64,000 nt of DNA from NCBI GenBank assembly GCA_025210805.1, contig JAOAQX010000023.1, positions 124,001-188,000 on the forward strand. The letters run 5' to 3'. Position 1 is the stretch's first letter. Each line of letters begins with the position of its first letter. The notes under the pieces were generated by a model. The model did not search any database. It saw nothing but the letters and a program-made list of their open reading frames with translations, and was not told the DNA's origin. Both the position numbers and the translations under genes were made by a program. The DNA comes from Flavobacteriales bacterium. Its GTDB lineage: Bacteria; Bacteroidota; Bacteroidia; Flavobacteriales; CAJXXR01. Shown in pieces: positions 33,338-62,337 of this stretch.

Positions 33338-33719
33338 AACATCAGTACCTAAAACAACTAAGAGTTCAGATTACTCGCAGAGCAAAACCTGAACTAGGTA
33401 GTCTGCCCCAAAACATCTGGGTTGACTAAATCCCACAGCCTTGTACCGATTACTTACACTTCAGAAAACATCTCAAGCTTTCCGACAAATTTTTCATGAA
33501 ATTCAAGCTCATTTTCTTTACATAATTTGCTTGATAAATTCCCAAAAAACCAACCGAATTCATACGCATATAACAAAAAATCAACTCATTGATTTGATAA
33601 ATCCTTTGGATTCATTAGATTTGGGTAAACAAAATATATAGGGCGTATAAACACACACCTATGTTATACAAAGGTGTGTTTATACGGTTGTTAGCTTTAA
33701 TTTAAAAAAACTAAACAAA
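33338..33719 (+). repeat. Spacer: B element plus attC-like palindrome A2 (cassette 33720)
   Basis: This 382 bp spacer holds a B element (33359-33400, GAGTTCAGATTACTCGCAGAGC and its closing arm, a hairpin), a degenerate arm of hairpin D near 33443, and a strong palindrome at 33642-33692 (CGTATAAACACACACCT / AGGTGTGTTTATACG). The palindrome runs into GTTGTTAGCTTTA (33687-33699), whose complement follows the gene at 35045. The long upstream part of repeat A is absent. Confidence 0.7.
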
Positions 33720-35042
33720 ATGAAAATAAAAACTTTACTACTATTTCTTTTGCTTTTTCACCTAAAAAGTATATCACAAGAAAACCCTATTTCAAAAAAT
33801 GACATTCAAAATGTTTATAAGAATTTAGCTAAAGAATCTATAACTAGAAGTAACTCTCTTTCTATAAATTTAAGTGATCTTGCTTTTAAAGTACCTACAA
33901 ATGACAACTATCTCCCTCATTTAAAAGTTATCTTTAAACAAAACTCGGGAAGTTTATCTAAAACAATAAATGAATATAGGTTTTTATTCGATTTTTCAAA
34001 CACGTTTGGTTATAAAAAAGGAGACCTATATAACAGAAAAATTAATTACAAAAATTTAATCCAAAATCAAGATTTAAAAAATGTCACACACATAGAAATT
34101 AGTCTAGAATTAATTAAATCTCGAAACGCTAGTGATGATTTAAAGAATCTCATTTCTTCTGTATTAGGAATTTCAATAAACTCAGAAAATTCTCCTTTTG
34201 GAGTTAGTCTAATTGATAAAATAATTTCTTCTTCAAAAAAAGATGGTTTAACAAATTTACTTTTTCAAAACGAATTTGAAATTCCTAGTAATTTTGATGA
34301 ATATAATAATTTAAAAAAATCAGACAGGAATACACCATATATTAGTTCAAATGATAAAATAGGAATTATTCTAGATTCATCAATCGAAGATAACTCAGGA
34401 ACTTTAATTGGAGGCATAAGTAATATTATAAATAGTTTATCAAAATTCACTTATGGAAAAAAAATCATTGAAAAACCGATTGTGGATTTTAATGGCGTAT
34501 TATCATTGAGTTTCACAAAAAACAGATCAAAAGTTCTTCCTAAAGTTGTAAAAGAAAAAATAAGGAATTTAGTAGAAAAAATTGACAATCTAGATCCTTC
34601 TCAAATCCCAACAACTAAAGAAGGAATTAATGATTATATCTCTAGAAATTACACATCACTTGAAGAAAAATTAAATTTACTTAGAGAGGCAGATGGTATA
34701 ACAGAAACTCAAAACAAACATTTAGGATTAATTGTAAATTTAGCTAAAGTATATTTTAGAAAATTTGTATATAACAATGCTAAAAGTCCTTCAGTTATTA
34801 CAAGCGCTCATTTCTTTAATTCTTATAATTTATTCAAAAAAAAATGCAGAAGAACAACAAACTATACACAAGTTAAATATATAAATGACATATATACTAA
34901 AGAAAATAGTTCAATGAACAAACAAAAAAATGATGAAATTTTGTCTGAACTATTTTTATTCCCGTCTTTAAGTGATGAAATTAATCAAGCTTCAATGGAC
35001 TGGCAGATATACTTAGATGAATATATTAACTCCAAATTATAA
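33720..35042 (+). CDS. Secreted protein of unknown function (cassette gene)
   Basis: A 440-residue protein with a signal peptide (MKIKTLLLFLLLFHLKSISQ) and a hydrophilic, Asn/Ser/Lys-rich body without a family I know. Base composition is more AT-rich than the core genes. It carries the best cassette signature in the window: GTTGTTAGCTTTA before the gene and TAAAGCTAATAAC just after it (35045-35057), inverted complements with one mismatch. Confidence 0.65.
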   Translation: MKIKTLLLFLLLFHLKSISQENPISKNDIQNVYKNLAKESITRSNSLSINLSDLAFKVPTNDNYLPHLKVIFKQNSGSLSKTINEYRFLFDFSNTFGYKKGDLYNRKINYKNLIQNQDLKNVTHIEISLELIKSRNASDDLKNLISSVLGISINSENSPFGVSLIDKIISSSKKDGLTNLLFQNEFEIPSNFDEYNNLKKSDRNTPYISSNDKIGIILDSSIEDNSGTLIGGISNIINSLSKFTYGKKIIEKPIVDFNGVLSLSFTKNRSKVLPKVVKEKIRNLVEKIDNLDPSQIPTTKEGINDYISRNYTSLEEKLNLLREADGITETQNKHLGLIVNLAKVYFRKFVYNNAKSPSVITSAHFFNSYNLFKKKCRRTTNYTQVKYINDIYTKENSSMNKQKNDEILSELFLFPSLSDEINQASMDWQIYLDEYINSKL

Positions 35043-35353
35043 ACTAAAGCTAATAACTAAGTCTTCGGATTGCTCGCAGAGCAAAATCTGAACTAGGTAA
35101 CATCGATATTAACAAGCTTCTAGATAAGGTATTGTGAAAACATCAAAAGACTTTTGAGCCATCAAAGGTCTTTTTTGGTGATCTTTAAATTTCTTAAAAT
35201 TAGAGAATTTTGTAGTTTTATGTACTTTTGAGAAAAGCTAGCCGTGAAACGGGTTTAGTTCAACAATGTACAAGCTTCGTTGACTGCCGCAGGCGAACAC
35301 AGAAAGCGAGACATACACAAACCATTGAAATTCATTAAGACAAAACAATAAAT
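35043..35353 (+). repeat. Spacer: B element, partial long-spacer copy and small palindrome (cassette 35354)
   Basis: Holds TAATAACTAAG and the B hairpin (35058-35095: CTTCGGATTGCTCGCAGAGC ... ATCTGAAC). Then comes a partial copy of the long spacer (35144-35272, ending CGTGAAACGGGTTTAGTTC), which also occurs at 45.3 and 62.2 kb. It ends in a diverged 65 bp palindromic stretch (35263-35330) before the next ATG. Confidence 0.65.
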
Positions 35354-42780: not shown

Positions 42781-42987
42781 CACCAACAACCATATAAACA
42801 CACCCTCAAATAACAAAGGCACATTCATAAGTCATTATACGTTTATACTTTTTTGTCATAATAAAAAACACAAAAAGCCCAATAAACACAGGTTTTGGAG
42901 GTGAATTTAGAGGTACTATTTATATTTTTGAATATCATAAGACTAAGGTACGAAAAACAATTTTATGAAGGAAGGATAAACGAATAA
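42781..42987 (-). repeat. Repeat A copy 6 (minus) with attC-like palindrome
   Basis: Minus-strand copy of repeat A. The palindrome (42785-42843) ends in GTTGTTGGTG before the gene at 42760. The repeat body continues to 42987 and is then interrupted by the MITE-like element. Confidence 0.72.
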
Positions 42988-42988
42988 T

Positions 42989-43152
42989 ACCAATTACGGT
43001 GTTCATTTACCCATTGATTTTAGTCTCTTTTTCGGAGAAATTCGTTGTCGAACATCCCCCTTTCCCTCCCGATAAATCGGGACAAGCTATTCGAAGAGGG
43101 CTTATACCAACCTGTAAATCAACACCGTAATTGGTATAATTAACCGAATATT
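42989..43152. mobile_element. MITE-like element, copy 1 (164 bp)
   Basis: It has a 24 bp near-perfect terminal inverted repeat (ACCAATTACGGTGTTCATTTAC and its complement ending near 43137) around a short core with no gene. It is flanked by CGAATAAT (42981-42988) and CGAATGAT (43153-43160), an 8 bp target duplication with one change. Repeat A copies 1, 3, 4 and 5 lack it and show the uninterrupted site. The core contains CCCGATAAATCGGG. Confidence 0.72.
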
Positions 43153-43824: not shown

Positions 43825-44062
43825 TATTTTTGAAATGTTCTTCGAAACGTAAGCAAACCATTTCTCTGTATATTTTAAGAAAGGTGTAATGCCGATACAT
43901 TACTAAAAGTCAATCGTGAACATGGTGAATTAATTGTGTATTCAGTAAGTAATCAGTACAACAGCTTGGTTTTTTCTCAATCCCGATGTTTCGGGACAGA
44001 CTATTGAGTTCATATTTTGCTCTGCGAGTAATCTAAAGATTTAGTTGTTACCCACAGTTATC
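43825..44062 (-). repeat. Downstream spacer with hairpin D and B element (cassette 44066)
   Basis: Reading on the minus strand from the 44066 gene: B element (about 44058-43978), a CCCGA..TCGGG stem, the 65 bp hairpin D (43956-43892) and the conserved block around CGTTTCGAAGAAC (43830-43860). The pseudogene ATG follows directly. Confidence 0.65.
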
Positions 44063-44065
44063 ATT

Positions 44066-45079
44066 TTAAATATCCCAATTCTCTCCGAAATACAGTATTG
44101 ACTTTGCTAATCTTTCATTCTCCTCTACCCATAAATCATCAATAAATAGAAAATAGTTGTAAAATATTTCGATCGAGTTAACTGATATTTCTGCAGAATG
44201 CTCATTTACAATAATTTTGCTTTTTTCAGGAAGATTACTTAATTCCATTTCCTTAATTTCAGATAAAGATTTTTCTTGTATTTCTATATCTTCAAGTTCC
44301 GTAATTGGATAGTTTGCAAATGTTTCTAATACTTTTTTTAAATTATTGCTTTTTAGTTGGTTTTCAATATGTTTTATGTAGTTTAATTCATTTATAGAAT
44401 ATAAAACATCTTCAATCTCATTAATTTCGTTATTTACCAAAAAGTCAAGAAGATTATTTAATCTAACACCTTCTATTTTTATGACTGTCATATCCTCAAG
44501 ATTTGAACCGTCATAAATTGGTGAGGACAAGAAATATGTATAACCTTCATTCTTTCCCTTTACATTTAATGTTGGAATGTCTTCGTTAATTTTAATTCCG
44601 TTTATTCCAAATGAAGTCGGTAAAATATCATTAAACCAGATTTCTGTTTTTTCTTTGTTTTGTTTTTTATACTCTTCTGTGAAAATAAACCAACCTAATT
44701 CAATTTCATCATCATCAGTAGCAACTTTTATACAGTTTTCATCTCCAGTGATTTCATTTATATATAAGCCTTCTTCTAATAATTCAAGTAAGTTTTGGAA
44801 ATTTTCAGGTTTTTTAGGTTTTGATTCATCTTTATTTCCCTTATGTCCTTTTTTTTCAAATAGTTTACTAAAAAGAGATTGTTTTTTTTCTTTTACTTCT
44901 TCTGTTTTAATGTCAATGGGAAAACCATAAACGTCTATTCCTAACAAATCAGAATATTTGTCTGAATTTAAAGTTTCCCAATTTTCAATAAACCAATCAT
45001 ATATAGAGTTTGATTCAAATTCTTTAATGTGTCTTAGGTTTGATTTATATGCTGTTCTATATGCAAAATATATTTTCAT
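44066..45079 (-). CDS. Protein of unknown function (cassette gene)
   Basis: A 337-residue soluble protein without signal peptide. It starts MKIYFAYRTAYKSNLRHIKE, has a lysine-rich linker (EKKQSLFSKLFEKKGHKGNK) and an acidic remainder. I do not recognise a family. The cassette signature is clear: the start side has GTTACTCACA (45104-45095) and the end side TGTGGGTAAC (44056-44047), complementary over ten bases with one mismatch. Confidence 0.65.
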   Translation of the reverse strand: MKIYFAYRTAYKSNLRHIKEFESNSIYDWFIENWETLNSDKYSDLLGIDVYGFPIDIKTEEVKEKKQSLFSKLFEKKGHKGNKDESKPKKPENFQNLLELLEEGLYINEITGDENCIKVATDDDEIELGWFIFTEEYKKQNKEKTEIWFNDILPTSFGINGIKINEDIPTLNVKGKNEGYTYFLSSPIYDGSNLEDMTVIKIEGVRLNNLLDFLVNNEINEIEDVLYSINELNYIKHIENQLKSNNLKKVLETFANYPITELEDIEIQEKSLSEIKEMELSNLPEKSKIIVNEHSAEISVNSIEIFYNYFLFIDDLWVEENERLAKSILYFGENWDI

Positions 45080-45826
45080 TTGTATTTTTTTAATTGTGAG
45101 TAACGTCCTCGGCTATGCGTAGTGCGGGTTTTAAAAGCTGAACTTATGGTTTAGCACAGACCCAAGCGATCCTTTTGTTTATTGGTTAAATTTCTGTTTA
45201 CTAATATACAAATTGTGAGCGGTTTTCTTGTAATGACCTTTCGGTTTTTCCTATCAGCCCGCATTACGTATGAGCCATTGTTGAACTAAACCCGTTTCAC
45301 GGGTAGTTTTTTCCCGAAATTACTTAAAACTACAAAATTCTCTAATTTTAAGAAAGTCAAAATTACATATTATGAAAAAAAAGAGAACTTTTAGTAGACA
45401 AAACCTAAGGTAAAAAAAACGAAACGCTAAGACGTAATGAGATCGCTATGTCTTGTAGTGAGGTTCTACCAAAAAACGAACAACAAACCGATATTCTCCT
45501 ACCAAAAAAAGACCTTTGATTGCTCAAAAGTCTTCTCTTTATCTTCTTAAAGTCCTGAAAAATGGATTTGTATAGCCTAAACTTATTTGTCGCAAAACCC
45601 ATAGTGTCTTGAAATGTTTTTCGAAACGTAAGTAAACCATTTCTCTGTGTAATTTAAGAAAAGTGTAATGCCGATACATTACTAAAAGTCAATTATGAAC
45701 AAAGTGAACTAATTGAATATTTTTGTAAGTAATCGGTACAACAGTGTGGGTTTTAGTCAATCCCGATGTTTCGGGATCTTCAGATTTTGCTCTGTGCGTG
45801 ATTTGAAGATTTAGTTATTGTACGTA
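45080..45826 (-). repeat. Long intercassette spacer, copy 1 (palindromes, hairpin D, B element)
   Basis: This 747 bp region has no gene. 45095-45290 is a palindrome unique to this cassette (GGCTCATACGTAATGCGGG near 45262-45280 faces CCCGCACTACGCATAGCC near 45105-45125). 45270-45826 is an inverted copy of 61719-62277, including hairpin D (45672-45736), a CCCGA/TCGGG stem and the B element (45757-45826). Confidence 0.7.
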
Positions 45827-45827
45827 G

Positions 45828-46514
45828 TTATTTTTTCTTGCGATATTCAATTTCGTGTTTATCTAAATACTCATAAAGTGTTCCTGATTCAATTGTGTCA
45901 AAAGCTGATTCTTTAGCTAACTCCAATGATTCATATTTAACTTTGCTTTTAAGCTTATGGATAGTTAGTTGAAAGTTAGTTTTTTTAATTTCCTCGATTT
46001 CCACTTCAAATAAATTTTGCTTTATCAGGTACTTTCCTTCGTTGTACTTCCATCTTTTTGACTTTATGAATCGCATTTTTCTACTCCTGTATCGATTCAT
46101 AGTTTCTCTTTTATTTGAAGCGATTTGTGAGTCAGTCAAATTATCACAGCAAACTGTGCCAACTTCAAGAAAACCCCAATTTGGGTGAGAAATCAAATAT
46201 TTATGTCTGATTGTTGCTCCACAACCACTATTTTCACAATCACTACTAAATTCACCCGAATCCTCTTGACCTAGAAATTCCCAACCTATTTTTGGTTGAA
46301 TAATTCCGTGTTCAGCTGCGTGACAACCTTTACATAAAGTTTCACAATTTACAGTTCCATATTCCCAGGGTAACTTTCCTTTCAAATAAATTTTATGGTG
46401 CACTTGTAAAATAACCTCATTTTTTGAACGCCCACATCTCACGCAATTATATCCGTCAGATTCAATTACGTTTTCTCTAAATTCTATCCATTCTTTTCTG
46501 TTGTATAGAGACAT
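45828..46514 (-). CDS. HNH endonuclease-like protein (cassette gene)
   Basis: A 228-residue protein with a zinc-bound HNH motif: C24-xx-C27, H39-H40 (LQVHHKIYL), C61-xx-C64-H65 (CKGCHAAEH). A second cysteine-rich part (DCENSGCGATI, GTVCCDNLT) and a basic region follow. It is probably a nuclease that cuts or binds DNA; the role is unknown. Start-side GTTGTGCATAAT (46531-46543, minus) and end-side ACTACGTACAATAAC (45828-45814) form the cassette pair. Confidence 0.78.
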   Translation of the reverse strand: MSLYNRKEWIEFRENVIESDGYNCVRCGRSKNEVILQVHHKIYLKGKLPWEYGTVNCETLCKGCHAAEHGIIQPKIGWEFLGQEDSGEFSSDCENSGCGATIRHKYLISHPNWGFLEVGTVCCDNLTDSQIASNKRETMNRYRSRKMRFIKSKRWKYNEGKYLIKQNLFEVEIEEIKKTNFQLTIHKLKSKVKYESLELAKESAFDTIESGTLYEYLDKHEIEYRKKK

Positions 46515-46674
46515 TTCAATATGAGGTTCTAATTATGCACAACGGTTTGAATATGGTGCGTTTGACATTTCAACGCTCTAAACTTTCGTTTTACCAACAT
46601 CTTTCTTAATTGCTATCATCTTTATTATTAATACTATCTGCCAAATGCACTGTGTTTTTTGTTACAGTGCGTAA
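46515..46674 (-). repeat. attC-like intercassette site between 46675 and HNH genes
   Basis: This is the cleanest and shortest spacer in the window. It begins at the 46675 gene stop with GCACTGTAACAA and ends before the HNH gene with GTTGTGCATAATT. Inside are GTGCATTTGGC and GTCAAACGCAC, complementary arms. The span from 46531 to 46670 is 140 bp, within the size range of integron attC sites (about 57-141 bp). Confidence 0.68.
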
Positions 46675-47637
46675 TTAATTCATATTCTCTATCAAATAAT
46701 CGATTAAAGGTAATATCCTTAAGTAATCAACACTTATTTCAAACTCATCATCGACTCCCATTTTTTCTAGTTTAATTATTCCATTCTTTAAGTTCTCAAA
46801 GTTTTGATTTTCACTTACAATTATTTCTGTATTTGAATTTTCTTCTATATGTTCTTTTAGTCCTGTTTGAATTTGATAATAAATATTCTGGATTATTCTG
46901 ATTATCTCTGTATTTACTCTTGAAAATGTTTGGAGTTTTGTGCTTGTATAGTACTTGTCATTTATTATGAATGAAACATTTAAACCAGAAACCCACATCT
47001 TTCTAACATCATCTATTGAATAATTTGGATTCTCCCCAAAAGGCATGTCAGGCATTGAAGCAATCCCTAATACAGGCAATAAAAAATCAAATTCATGAAT
47101 AAGTATTTTCAGATTTCGGTCCGTATACAGATCATTATGACCTCCAATACTTAAAAAGTACATTACATCATTTACCGTCACATAATAAAGCAAACTATCT
47201 TCTCTTGTATTGTGATTGTCTAAATGAAAATGTCTAATTCCAAATATTTGGTTTGTGAAATCAACTCTATATCTCCACTTTTCATTATCTCCTTCAAAAG
47301 TATCAAAGTATCTCTTCGATGATTTTGGAATAAACCCTAATGAATTTGAATTCACATTAATATCCCCTTCTTCTAGATGAGTAATTAAACTTTCATAATT
47401 TTCTTTCGATTTTTTAGAAAGCCCCTCGGTTTTTAATTGAGAAGATTTGATTATTTTCCACTTGATTGGCAAAACCTTAGTTTGTAAATACCGTTCTGTA
47501 ACAAACACTAAGTCTGTTAATGCTCTATATGAACTATATATTCCAGAAACGTCTGGCATATATTGAATTTCTCTTTCAGGTAGAATTCGCTTTACTCTTT
47601 CTAATATCTGATGGAAAATATATTCAACAACATTCAT
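46675..47637 (-). CDS. Protein of unknown function (cassette gene)
   Basis: About 320 residues from the ATG at 47637 (MNVVEYIFHQILERV); an in-frame ATG at 47706 lies inside the boundary palindrome. The middle contains WRYRVDFTNQIFGIRHFHLD and VMYFLSIGGHNDLY, which recalls toxin-like RelE/abortive proteins but is not diagnostic. The cassette ends are GTTACAGGGC before and GCACTGTAAC after (47669-47660, 46670-46661). Confidence 0.62.
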   Translation of the reverse strand: MNVVEYIFHQILERVKRILPEREIQYMPDVSGIYSSYRALTDLVFVTERYLQTKVLPIKWKIIKSSQLKTEGLSKKSKENYESLITHLEEGDINVNSNSLGFIPKSSKRYFDTFEGDNEKWRYRVDFTNQIFGIRHFHLDNHNTREDSLLYYVTVNDVMYFLSIGGHNDLYTDRNLKILIHEFDFLLPVLGIASMPDMPFGENPNYSIDDVRKMWVSGLNVSFIINDKYYTSTKLQTFSRVNTEIIRIIQNIYYQIQTGLKEHIEENSNTEIIVSENQNFENLKNGIIKLEKMGVDDEFEISVDYLRILPLIDYLIENMN

Positions 47638-47659
47638 TTTTGTACTGTTTTGCTTTTGT

Positions 47660-47867
47660 GCCCTGTAACAACCGAATAAACACACCCTAGCATAACACAA
47701 GTGCATTTACAAGCCTTATAACGTTAATACTTTTTTGTCATAATCAAAAACACAAAAAGCCCAGTAAATACAGGTTTTGGAAGTGAATCTAGAGGTTCTA
47801 TTTATATTTTTGAATATCATAAGACTAAGATACAAAAAACAATTTTACGAAGGAAGGATAAACGAAT
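47660..47867 (-). repeat. Repeat A copy 7 (minus) with attC-like palindrome
   Basis: Palindrome at 47667-47725, ending in GTTGTTACAG (minus) before the 46675 gene. The outer A body continues to 47867, then the second MITE-like element. Confidence 0.72.
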
Positions 47868-47870
47868 AAT

Positions 47871-48034
47871 ACCAATTACGGTGTTCATTTACCCATAGAT
47901 TTTAGTCTCTTTTTCGGAGAAATTCGTTGTCGAACATCCCCCTTTCCCTCCCGATAAATCGGGACAAGCTATTCGAAGGGGGCTTATGCTAATGTGTAAA
48001 TTAACACCGTAATTGGTATAATTAACCGAATATT
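47871..48034. mobile_element. MITE-like element, copy 2 (164 bp)
   Basis: Same 164 bp length and terminal repeats as copy 1. It is flanked by exact 8 bp direct repeats CGAATAAT (47863-47870 and 48035-48042). The two copies occupy the same site in two repeat A copies, so the insertion predates the duplication of that repeat. Confidence 0.74.
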
Positions 48035-48108
48035 CGAATAATATACGGCTATTGTTTTTAGATTTTGTTGGACTTATCTTTCCCTGCATGATCTCCCTAG
48101 CCCCGATA

Positions 48109-48176
48109 GAGGCGGTATCCTTTTTCTTTTTCCTTAGAAAAAGAAAAAGATTGAGCCGAAAGCGGGTTTCCGCTCC
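48109..48176 (-). repeat. Repeat E, copy 2 (inverted)
   Basis: Inverted, diverged copy of the element at 31522-31598, with AGCCCCGATAGAGGCGGTAT at one end and AAGCGGGTTTCCGCTCC at the other, around a hairpin of T-rich and A-rich arms. It marks the right-hand end of the left cassette cluster. Confidence 0.65.
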
Positions 48177-60874: not shown

Positions 60875-61170
60875 AAAACGGCTGAGAATATCTAAGTCTT
60901 CGGATTGCTCGCAGAGCAAAAAAAAAGATAATAGTCGCATATTATTATTAGTCTATCCTCACTTCATAAAATTGTTTTTTTGTACCTTAGTCTCATGATA
61001 TTCAAAAATATAAATAGTACCTCTAAATTCACTTCCAAAACTTGTATTTACTGGGCTTTTTGTGTTTTTGATTATGACAGAGAAAGTATAAACGTTTAAT
61101 GACTTATGAATGTGCCTTTTTTTGTGGGGGTTTGTTTATATGGTTGTTGTGTATAATTTATAAGAAATAA
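60875..61170 (+). repeat. Spacer: truncated B element joined to repeat A copy 5
   Basis: A shortened B element (60888-60919, ending GCTCGCAGAGCAAA) runs without any gap into repeat A copy 5 (60917-61147), which shows that the parts can recombine. The palindrome is at 61091-61148, ending GTTGTTGTGTATA. Confidence 0.7.
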
Positions 61171-61713
61171 ATGAAAGGAATCTCAAAAAAATTTTTTAAT
61201 GCCAATAGGGCATTAGAAGAAAATGATTTAGAAACCGCCATTTCATGTTTGTATCCAATTGTGGACTCATTTTCAAAACACCACTTCCCAAATAGAGGTG
61301 TAGGAAATAGATTTAAGAACTATATTGATTCTAATGAAAGTGATTTGTTGTATTTCTTTTCAAATGGAACCAACATTAATTTGAGTGGATTCTGGGATGA
61401 AACCCAACAAAAAAACATGAGAATAAGCGAGTTATTTTATAAATATAGAAATTCTGATGTTCACGATCCTAGTGAAACCGAGACTATTTTAAATTTTGAA
61501 AAATCGAATATAATAGGTACAAAACAAATTAGTCATCGAATGATATTTGGACTTTTTCTAATTCTTTGGACTGACACAATTTGTAAAGATCAAATAGAAA
61601 AGAGTTTGCTTCAGGAATTTAAAAAGTTTCGGATTAAAAATATTGATAAAATATTTGATTTGGTGAGTATTTTAAGTAATCGTGATCTAGCTAAAAAGTA
61701 CTTTAAGAATTAA
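61171..61713 (+). CDS. HEPN-like protein (cassette gene)
   Basis: A 180-residue helical protein with the Rx4H motif typical of HEPN RNases (R93-NSDVH98 in KYRNSDVHDP). No signal or membrane segment. HEPN proteins are common toxins and abortive-infection effectors; an antitoxin partner is not evident here. The cassette pair is excellent: GTTGTTGTGTATA (61143-61155) and TATGCACAATAAC (61719-61731). Confidence 0.65.
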   Translation: MKGISKKFFNANRALEENDLETAISCLYPIVDSFSKHHFPNRGVGNRFKNYIDSNESDLLYFFSNGTNINLSGFWDETQQKNMRISELFYKYRNSDVHDPSETETILNFEKSNIIGTKQISHRMIFGLFLILWTDTICKDQIEKSLLQEFKKFRIKNIDKIFDLVSILSNRDLAKKYFKN

Positions 61714-62337
61714 AAAACTATGCACAATAACTAAGTCTTCGGATTGCTCGTAGAGCAAAATCTGAAGATCCCGAAAACATCGGTATTGACTAAAAACCAC
61801 GCTGTTGTACCGATTACTTACTAAATATTCAATTAGTTCACCGTGTTCATAATTGACTTTTAGTAATGTATCGGCATTACACCTTTCTTAAAATATACAG
61901 AGAATTGGTTTACTTGCGTTTCGAAAAACATTTCAAAACACTATGGGTTTTGCAACAAATAAAGTTTAGGCTATACAAATCCATTTTTCAGGACTTTAAG
62001 AAGATAAAGAGAAGACTTTTTGAGCAATCAAAGGTCTTTTTTGGTGGGAAAATATCGGTTTATTGTTCGTTTTTTGGAAAAACCTCACTACAAGACATAG
62101 CGATCCCATTACGTCTTAGCGTTTCGTTTTTTTTACCTGCAGGCTTTATCTACTAAAAGTTCTCTTTTTTTTCATAATCCGTAATTTTAACTTTCTTAAA
62201 ATTAGAGAATTTTGTAGTTTTAGGTACTATTGAGAAAAAGCTACCCGTGAAACGGGTTTAGTTCAACATTGCATCCAACGTCCATGTCTCCCAAAAGATC
62301 ATCACGGCGTAGATGCAGAATCGTTACCCATAATTCA
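61714..62337 (+). repeat. Long intercassette spacer, copy 2 (with hairpin D)
   Basis: A 624 bp spacer: B element (61717-61790), hairpin D (61810-61874), conserved blocks (CGTTTCGAAAAAC, GACATAGCGATCCC, GTGAAACGGGTTTAGTTCAAC) and a short 68 bp palindrome (AACATTGCATCC ... GATGCAGAATCGTT) just before the next gene. It is an inverted match to 45270-45826. Confidence 0.72.

Follow-up and report, generated by a model that had tools for sequence, protein, structure and literature searches.

The subject here is a putative recombination site in a 64,000-nucleotide stretch of a Flavobacteriales genome (contig JAOAQX010000023.1, positions 124,001 to 188,000; this whole stretch is called the window). 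The site, 46534-46670, lies in the spacer 46515-46674 between two genes on the minus strand, and it is very probably an attC-like site that belongs to one cassette of an array, now decayed, of an integron-like system specific to the Bacteroidota. To judge from its sequence it is real but worn, and it closes the cassette of gene 46675-47706 (Table 1). It is judged real because its ends match, in that its R'' complements the 5' end of its own cassette, and not because of its fold. A first-pass annotation had already taken the spacer for a complete attC-like site, minimal where other spacers are longer and carry added repeats. Much of this stands: the motifs that it named are all present on the minus strand where it placed them, the neighbouring spacers are indeed longer with added repeats, and the size and layout are attC-like, the length of 137 nt, R'' and R' included, falling within the 131-141 nt of 18 of the 20 attC-like sites measured in other genomes. 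The canonical attC consensus is RYYYAAC for R'' and GTTRRRY for R', which CTGTAAC and GTTGTGC of this site both miss. Thus the site appears to be a genuine one at a cassette end, but it is not a canonical attC.

An integron cassette circle carries one complete attC, and the 5' end of an integrated cassette must therefore complement the R'' at its own 3' end. Earlier, CTGTAAC and GTTGTGC had been read as the paired outer motifs of the site. They are not complementary to one another and belong to two different cassettes: CTGTAAC lies within the R'' GCACTGTAAC (46661-46670, minus strand), which is partnered at nine of ten positions by the 5' end at 47669, GTTACAGGGC, and not by the GTTGTGC of the next cassette. 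The cassette-specific 7-mer of the cassette end (n7) matches at 6/7 positions, and the A/C at position 10 is kept. When the 29 gene 3' ends of the genome were compared with all 29 5' zones, the R'' of this site found its best partner among the 29 candidates in its own 5' end (score 10, rank 1/29). Over the whole comparison the mean own-end score was 7.52 against 6.26 (standard deviation 0.21) after permutation, and none of 20,000 permutations reached 7.52; nine of the 29 cassettes, that of gene 46675-47706 included, rank first for their own end. The cassette border lies inside the open reading frame called as 46675-47706, which begins too far upstream; the true start is more likely at 47637, and the protein of the shortened gene has a weak match to PD-T4-7, a phage-defence protein (E 9.5e-9). 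In the array, as in integrons, most cassettes hold a single gene and they share one orientation. Several cassette ends occur in the window, in a genome without an intact recombinase of the family described below, as in a cluster of attC sites lacking an integron integrase (CALIN); no attI was identified in the window.

Clear cassettes are found in the flanks of the recombinase in relatives. A signature pair had to combine an exact 7-mer complement with A/C at position 10 (A in the 5' end, C opposite it in the 3' end). When genome contigs were scanned, a first set of 80 loci emerged, 31 of which were counted as members of the Bacteroidota family. These 31 hold 19 signature pairs downstream on the same strand, none upstream and one on the other strand, against 0-3 in whole-locus shuffles, and the 49 control loci of other recombinases (805,698 bases) hold none. 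Pairs occur in 8 of the 31 loci, or in 6/14 of those with at least 5 kb downstream. For an independent set, a profile search was made across the phylum and 20 of its top-ranking genomes were used, with 12 kb taken on each side where the contig allowed; three of them had less than 700 bases of contig downstream. Here 49 signature pairs lie downstream on the recombinase strand, in 14 of the 20 genomes, with none on the opposite strand, 0 and 1 upstream, and 0-2 in shuffles; these are counts of end pairs and not of cassettes, and 10 of the pairs come from a single genome (G094), in which starts recur. The two measured sites outside the usual length range are of 59 and 203 nt. In eight of the 20 genomes the first cassette border follows the recombinase stop codon by 45-105 bases, and the sequence before the first GTT is unlike attC, as is the case for attI. 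An attI-like position was thus seen in relatives only.

The anatomy of the end helix can be followed beyond the 7-mer, the two ends of a cassette being paired over some 13 bp. The 7-mer was itself selected to match, and the fairer evidence therefore comes from positions 11-13, which lie outside it: they pair in 42, 41 and 36 of 42 rows, where the permuted means are 38.1, 23.5 and 17.2 (42 of the 43 printed rows were used, the low-complexity pair L155 17620 being left out). Covariation in the end helix scores 0.657, compared with 0.138 when shuffled and at most 0.106 when slid. With no demand placed on position 10, A/C is found there in 43/48 pairs of the first set, counted over 11 loci chosen because earlier scans had shown hits in them, and in 49/55 exact pairs of the independent set. 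This near-invariant position, an A.C mismatch when the top strand folds, becomes a G.T wobble when the bottom strand does. When 21 sites joined to their own 5' ends were folded (L159 14949 is counted twice, with two possible 5' ends), the bottom strand was the more stable in 20 of 21, with means of -30.2 and -26.0 kcal/mol for bottom and top, and bottom-strand z scores from -2.35 to -9.84. The end helix is of 11-17 bp, and a bulge of 2-4 nt just inside it, on the R' side only, is present in 13 of the 21.

The resistance gene tet(X) provides a case in which one cassette can be seen in several places. A plasmid search with the recombinase led to the gene annotated 'xerD' or TnpF beside tet(X3) in Acinetobacter plasmids and in pHH1107, which is a truncated member of the family (54% identity over residues 143-376). 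The tet(X3) gene starts with GTTATGTGCCATTTTTGAATGACA, the same 5' end as that of a tet(X2) cassette. Five Flavobacteriales genomes carry a tet(X2)-like gene, 86-87% identical in protein to Tet(X3), whose 3' end AAAACGGCACATAAC is the exact partner of the 5' end GTTATGTGCCATTTTTGAATGACA, position 10 again being A/C. Four of these genomes carry the same 1,327-nt cassette, without a difference at any of 1,328 compared bases, and 1,282/1,328 agree with the fifth. Outside the cassette the sequences differ: on the right any two genomes have only 22-31 of 60 nt in common, on the left three contexts occur, and the break falls between C and GTT. The attC of this cassette measures 139 nt, and its predicted stability is -41.7 kcal/mol for the bottom strand (z -8.4) and -33.5 for the top. 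An Empedobacter plasmid also carries the tet(X2) cassette ends. From these loci (L313-L317, L309, L310 and L333), tet(X2) is a cassette of the Bacteroidota system with exact G^TT borders in different contexts.

The recombinase of about 380 residues that accompanies these arrays was found, in a profile search at E <= 1e-60, in 115/395 Bacteroidota genomes (113/371 among those of good quality). Its best sequence match in the PDB is the integron integrase IntI4 (2a3v, E 8.9e-37), in two stretches separated by 19 residues in the query and by 62 in IntI4. Two anchors of the catalytic domain stand 62-64 residues apart in most family members; XerC/D types have about 70 residues there, and eight of the nine IntI-clade rows have 105. 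The family lacks the insertion (I2, or additional domain) that defines IntI. The IntI model TIGR02249 gives 202.7 bits on member 1 of the family, below its cut-off of 265, and no protein above the cut-off was found in 40 genomes, the genome of the window included; NCBIfam NF040815 bears the name 'tyrosine recombinase/integron integrase'. In a tree of 80 aligned rows of 250-420 residues, the root of which is arbitrary, the Bacteroidota grouping has support of only 81/89. Most full-length members carry some 70-117 extra residues at the N-terminus, for which a domain is predicted with fair confidence (predicted local distance difference test, pLDDT, 79). Pfam HARP is matched by this domain in 2/20 members (best E 0.0013). 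VIA-align places it near the XPB damage-recognition domain, DRD (5tnu, Z 6.3, root-mean-square deviation 2.0, 56 residues aligned), and HARP 4o66 (Z 3.8), where a Z below 8 may mean merely a common arrangement; Foldseek gave nothing at E <= 0.001 and the best match in a PDB sequence search had E 0.098. Because the Z scores are under 8, the likeness to HARP and the XPB-DRD is to be taken as a lead.

Such a recombinase bears on the question of whether the window simply holds an ordinary CALIN, that is, a canonical IntI array with classical attC sites from which the integrase has been lost. One gene per site, a single orientation and a cassette layout would be expected of a CALIN too, and integrons are on record in Bacteroidetes (according to the portions available of PMC9024848 and PMC2426708). 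We nevertheless regard it as improbable: the 40 genomes hold no TIGR02249 match above the cut-off, the recombinases that do accompany the arrays lack the insertion by the anchor spacing given above, the R boxes are off consensus, and nine IntI loci do not have the A/C signature.

The genome of the window retains only pieces of this enzyme. Besides the C-terminal remnant of the cognate integrase listed in Table 1, there is a second on contig C34, which shares 64% identity with the terminal part of a relative's recombinase of about 380 residues, and both remnants lie inside cassette arrays. An intact copy of the family recombinase was not found in this genome, in which XerC and XerD are intact. 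Because only remnants remain, the array is probably a relic and the site 46534-46670 probably inert or nearly so. Elsewhere in the genome (C21:11901-13755) two adjoining genes encode tyrosine recombinases of 339 and 303 residues.

We propose the following scheme. The gene for a tyrosine recombinase of about 380 residues would lie directly before an attI-like site and the array, with which it would share its orientation. The enzyme would act on a cassette site whose bottom strand has folded, cutting at G^TT within R'. This folded site would consist of a helix of about 13-16 bp between R'' and R', made up of the cassette-specific 7-mer, AAC/GTT and the outer bases; of the fixed A.C position, a mismatch on the top strand and a G.T wobble on the bottom; and of a bulge of 2-6 nt restricted to the R' side. 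On excision both ends of one cassette would come together as a full R''/R' pair, and each cassette's 5' end would for this reason complement only its own 3' end. The features on which the scheme draws can be read directly from the genomes: own-end complementarity and its covariation, the A.C rule, the position and polarity of the sites relative to the recombinase, the stability of the bottom strand, and tet(X2) in different contexts. That the family recombinase does the cutting is what we infer from them; the bottom strand would then be the substrate, and the fixed wobble and the bulge may set the choice of strand. As the system fails the IntI test, it is not an integron sensu stricto, although it appears to work like one. 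With rather less assurance than we place in the reading of the site itself, we incline to a wider view: that the Bacteroidota have an integron class of their own, which would use folded single-stranded sites without the I2 helix generally considered necessary for this, choose the strand by A.C/G.T and the one-sided bulge, perhaps with HARP/XPB-DRD-like help, and which would have captured tet(X) and delivered it with 'xerD' to Acinetobacter plasmids.

Several observations weigh against this interpretation, and many of them concern the site itself. The inner arms, proposed at the outset to be complementary, are present as motifs, but their pairing (10/12) does not rise above chance when compared with shuffled arms (p = 0.065). 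The fold has only a marginal advantage over those of shuffled sequences (bottom strand z -1.52, with 18/200 shuffles as good; top strand z -1.92, with 11/200), and reconstitution with the cassette's own 5' end gives z -1.3 to -1.9. In the best fold R'' and R' are unpaired and form no end helix; the two bases next outward from the A.C position do not make a pair. This predicted fold is the weakest among the sites folded, and the fold of this single site was accordingly rejected as proof. There is no second copy of the site in its genome; the inner-arm motif GTCAAACGCAC, with at most one mismatch, occurs genome-wide at control level (16 versus 15); the R'-end motif GTTGTGCRTAATTA has 80 matches in 40 genomes and 79 in the backwards control; and Rfam has no match at the site. 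Beyond the site, 20/29 cassettes of the genome are not first-ranked for their own end, and a detector of strict ends finds six pairs in 236,509 bases of the genome, within the shuffle range of 0-6; for these two reasons the array is considered worn. Signature pairs are missing from 8/14 first-set loci with at least 5 kb downstream and from 3/17 genomes of the independent set. As to tet(X), one of the genomes with tet(X2), G191, has Xer-like matches only and no clear family recombinase; the other four have their nearest family member at a distance of 2-4 kb, oriented opposite to tet(X2); the tet(X2) cassette ends were not found at the plasmid loci of tet(X4) and tet(X5/X6) (L334 and L335, two of five plasmid loci); and the 7-mer at the 3' end of tet(X3) matches its own 5' end at only 4/7 positions, with A/C and AAAAA/TTTTT kept. 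Homologues of the HNH protein of the next cassette were considered as evidence of mobility and set aside: among 395 genomes they are present only in that of the window and in G006, where the 55%-identical homologue has no cassette ends.

It might be asked, then, whether the system is real and the spacer 46515-46674 resembles its sites by chance. The weak fold and arms, the n7 of 6/7 and the missing pair outside the A.C position would suit such a coincidence, which we consider unlikely, for the R'' has its best match among 29 in its own 5' end, keeps A/C at position 10, belongs to a site of fitting length and lies exactly between two cassette genes. The spacer had also been put forward as the best place for a test of recombination. 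This choice is not supported, given that its fold is the weakest examined, that the genome has no intact cognate integrase and that sites in relatives fold far better; the strain itself is a poor place for such a test.

Two further accounts were considered, and we think both very unlikely. The first is that the modules are driven by XerC/XerD acting on dif-like or pdif sites, with no dedicated recombinase. The intact XerC and XerD of this genome, where the dedicated enzyme is broken, and the Xer-like matches of the tet(X2)-bearing G191 would agree with this; the position of the first border close behind the stop codon of a dedicated recombinase in 8/20 genomes would not, nor would the confinement of the arrays to the region downstream of that gene. 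Sites of the pdif kind, used by XerC/XerD, are of 28 bp, unlike the borders seen here, which are G^TT at foldable sites of 131-141 nt. The second takes the spacers for terminators, or for REP-like repeats that chance or gene conversion has made alike, and allows them no role in recombination. It would be at home with the dispersed, hairpin-forming AACTAAG element described below and with the weak fold of the site, but it predicts neither the gene-specific 7-mer pairing of a cassette's own 5' and 3' flanks nor the occurrence of one 1,327-nt unit, bordered exactly at G^TT, in several contexts.

The features of the window are collected in Table 1. In most attC-like sites of the genome an AACTAAG...TTTAGTT element with an internal hairpin stands at a fixed point, directly after R''; apart from the copy at 45284-45816 in the window there are about 25 similar places in the genome. 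Short attC-like sites of about 60 nt without the inserted element occur at L102 2250-2395 and L107 2206-2284 of the same genome. A 300-nt repeat, 91% identical between 42785-43084 and 47667-47966 of the window, is the right half of another type of site; its end resembles the stretch after the integrase remnants and may derive from attI. Among the cassettes elsewhere in the genome is one for the defence system Septu, with two genes and matching ends (L099 7828-9763, contig C34; PtuA E 4.3e-170, PtuB E 2.4e-71). A Flavo-1 RNA (Rfam RF01705, 58.4 bits) lies at 48095-48173 on the plus strand of the window.

Table 1. Cassettes, site elements and related features of the window (positions are those of the window)
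Feature	Position	Strand	Remarks
Cassette containing gene 46675-47706	46543..47668	-	1,126 nt, from TT of its own R' to G of the next R'; borders inferred from the G^TT rule
5' end of that cassette, GTT ACAGGGC A	47659..47669	-	border at 47669, GTTACAGGGCA
Gene of the cassette, start moved to internal ATG (MNVVEY...)	46675..47637	-	PADLOC PDLC04066, E 9.5e-9, 32.7 bits
attC-like site of the cassette (R'' to end of R')	46534..46670	-	137 nt
R'' end, C + GCACTGT + AAC	46661..46671	-	9/10 complementary to 5' end of own cassette
Left inner arm L'', GTGCATTTGGCA	46639..46650	-	contains GTGCATTTGGC at 46640-46650
Right inner arm L', TGTCAAACGCAC	46556..46567	-	contains GTCAAACGCAC at 46556-46566
R' and 5' end of next cassette, GTT GTGCATA A	46533..46543	-	GTTGTGC at 46537-46543
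Gene of next cassette, HNH endonuclease domain	45828..46514	-	Pfam PF01844, E 1.2e-5
R'' of HNH cassette, C TACGTAC AAT	45817..45827	-	n7 5/7 with own 5' end; A/C at position 10
Repeat element AACTAAATC...GGGTTTAGTT, inserted after R'' of next attC	45284..45816	-	
Right half of next attC	45094..45276	-	GGCTCATACGTAATGCGGG 45258-45276 / CCCGCACTACGCATAGCC 45111-45128, then GTTACTCACAA 45094-45104
Cassette gene without assigned function	44066..45079	-	5' GTTACTCACAATTA and 3' TAACTGTGGGTAAC match at 12/14
R'' of cassette with gene 44066-45079, C TGTGGGT AAC	44047..44057	-	
C-terminal remnant of cognate integrase (...LIDLINPLDSLDLGKQNI*)	33555..33641	+	
Cassette GTTAGCTTTAATTT ... AACTAAAGCTAAT	33690..35061	+	exact n7 complement
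Cassette GTTGTGTATAATTT ... AACTATGCACAAT	61146..61735	+	one n7 mismatch

No prior description of the Bacteroidota system was found in the Creative Commons-licensed literature in PMC. If the interpretation is correct, attC-like hairpins are served by a large natural family devoid of I2, which would make the need for I2 directly testable, and the 7-mer with the A/C rule offers a simple detector for cassettes carrying defence genes (Septu PtuA/PtuB) and resistance genes. It would account for homology-free gene uptake in Riemerella and for the conserved xerD-tet(X3) unit. It would also account for the apparent rarity of integrons in Bacteroidetes: the available part of the IntegronFinder 2.0 paper reports few there, with only In0 known earlier and one complete integron in Salinibacter (PMC9024848).

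With IntI integrons (class 1, Vibrio and other chromosomal ones) the system shares tandem one-gene cassettes in one orientation, an imperfect hairpin favouring the bottom strand, the G^TT border, a first cassette beside the recombinase and, in IntI4, the best PDB match. It differs in a recombinase without the IntI insertion and with some 70-117 extra N-terminal residues, in ends formed by a cassette-specific 7-mer and a near-invariant A.C in place of RYYYAAC/GTTRRRY, and in an array that lies 3' of the recombinase in the same orientation. Co-orientation of integrase and cassettes is also described, in the part of the source at hand, for the 'atypical' chromosomal integrons of Treponema (PMC3607928); these have intI, whereas the Bacteroidota family lacks its insertion. 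A CALIN resembles the array of the window in having sites and no intact integrase, but the sites of the window are non-canonical and many contain an inserted element. An 'integron-like' subgroup of tyrosine recombinases has been named (PMC8138268), for whose insertion-less members the accessible text describes no cassette arrays. The xerD-tet(X3)-res-ISVsa3 unit of Acinetobacter, in which 'xerD' is the truncated family member and tet(X3) has the 5' end of the tet(X2) cassette, is known as a transposition context (ISCR2), and a search of PMC7494873 gives 0 occurrences of integron, integrase or attC. The closest printed observation found comes from Riemerella anatipestifer, as excerpted from PMC13148043: aph(3')-IVb was integrated without homology together with a 27-bp 5' untranslated region (UTR) and a 140-bp 3' UTR, the latter being given an attC-like fold by the authors, who consider the mechanism 'yet to be fully elucidated'. 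Section 11 of that paper names no recombinase, end-pairing rule or wider system; going by the published description, the sizes of both UTRs fit the cassettes of the Bacteroidota.
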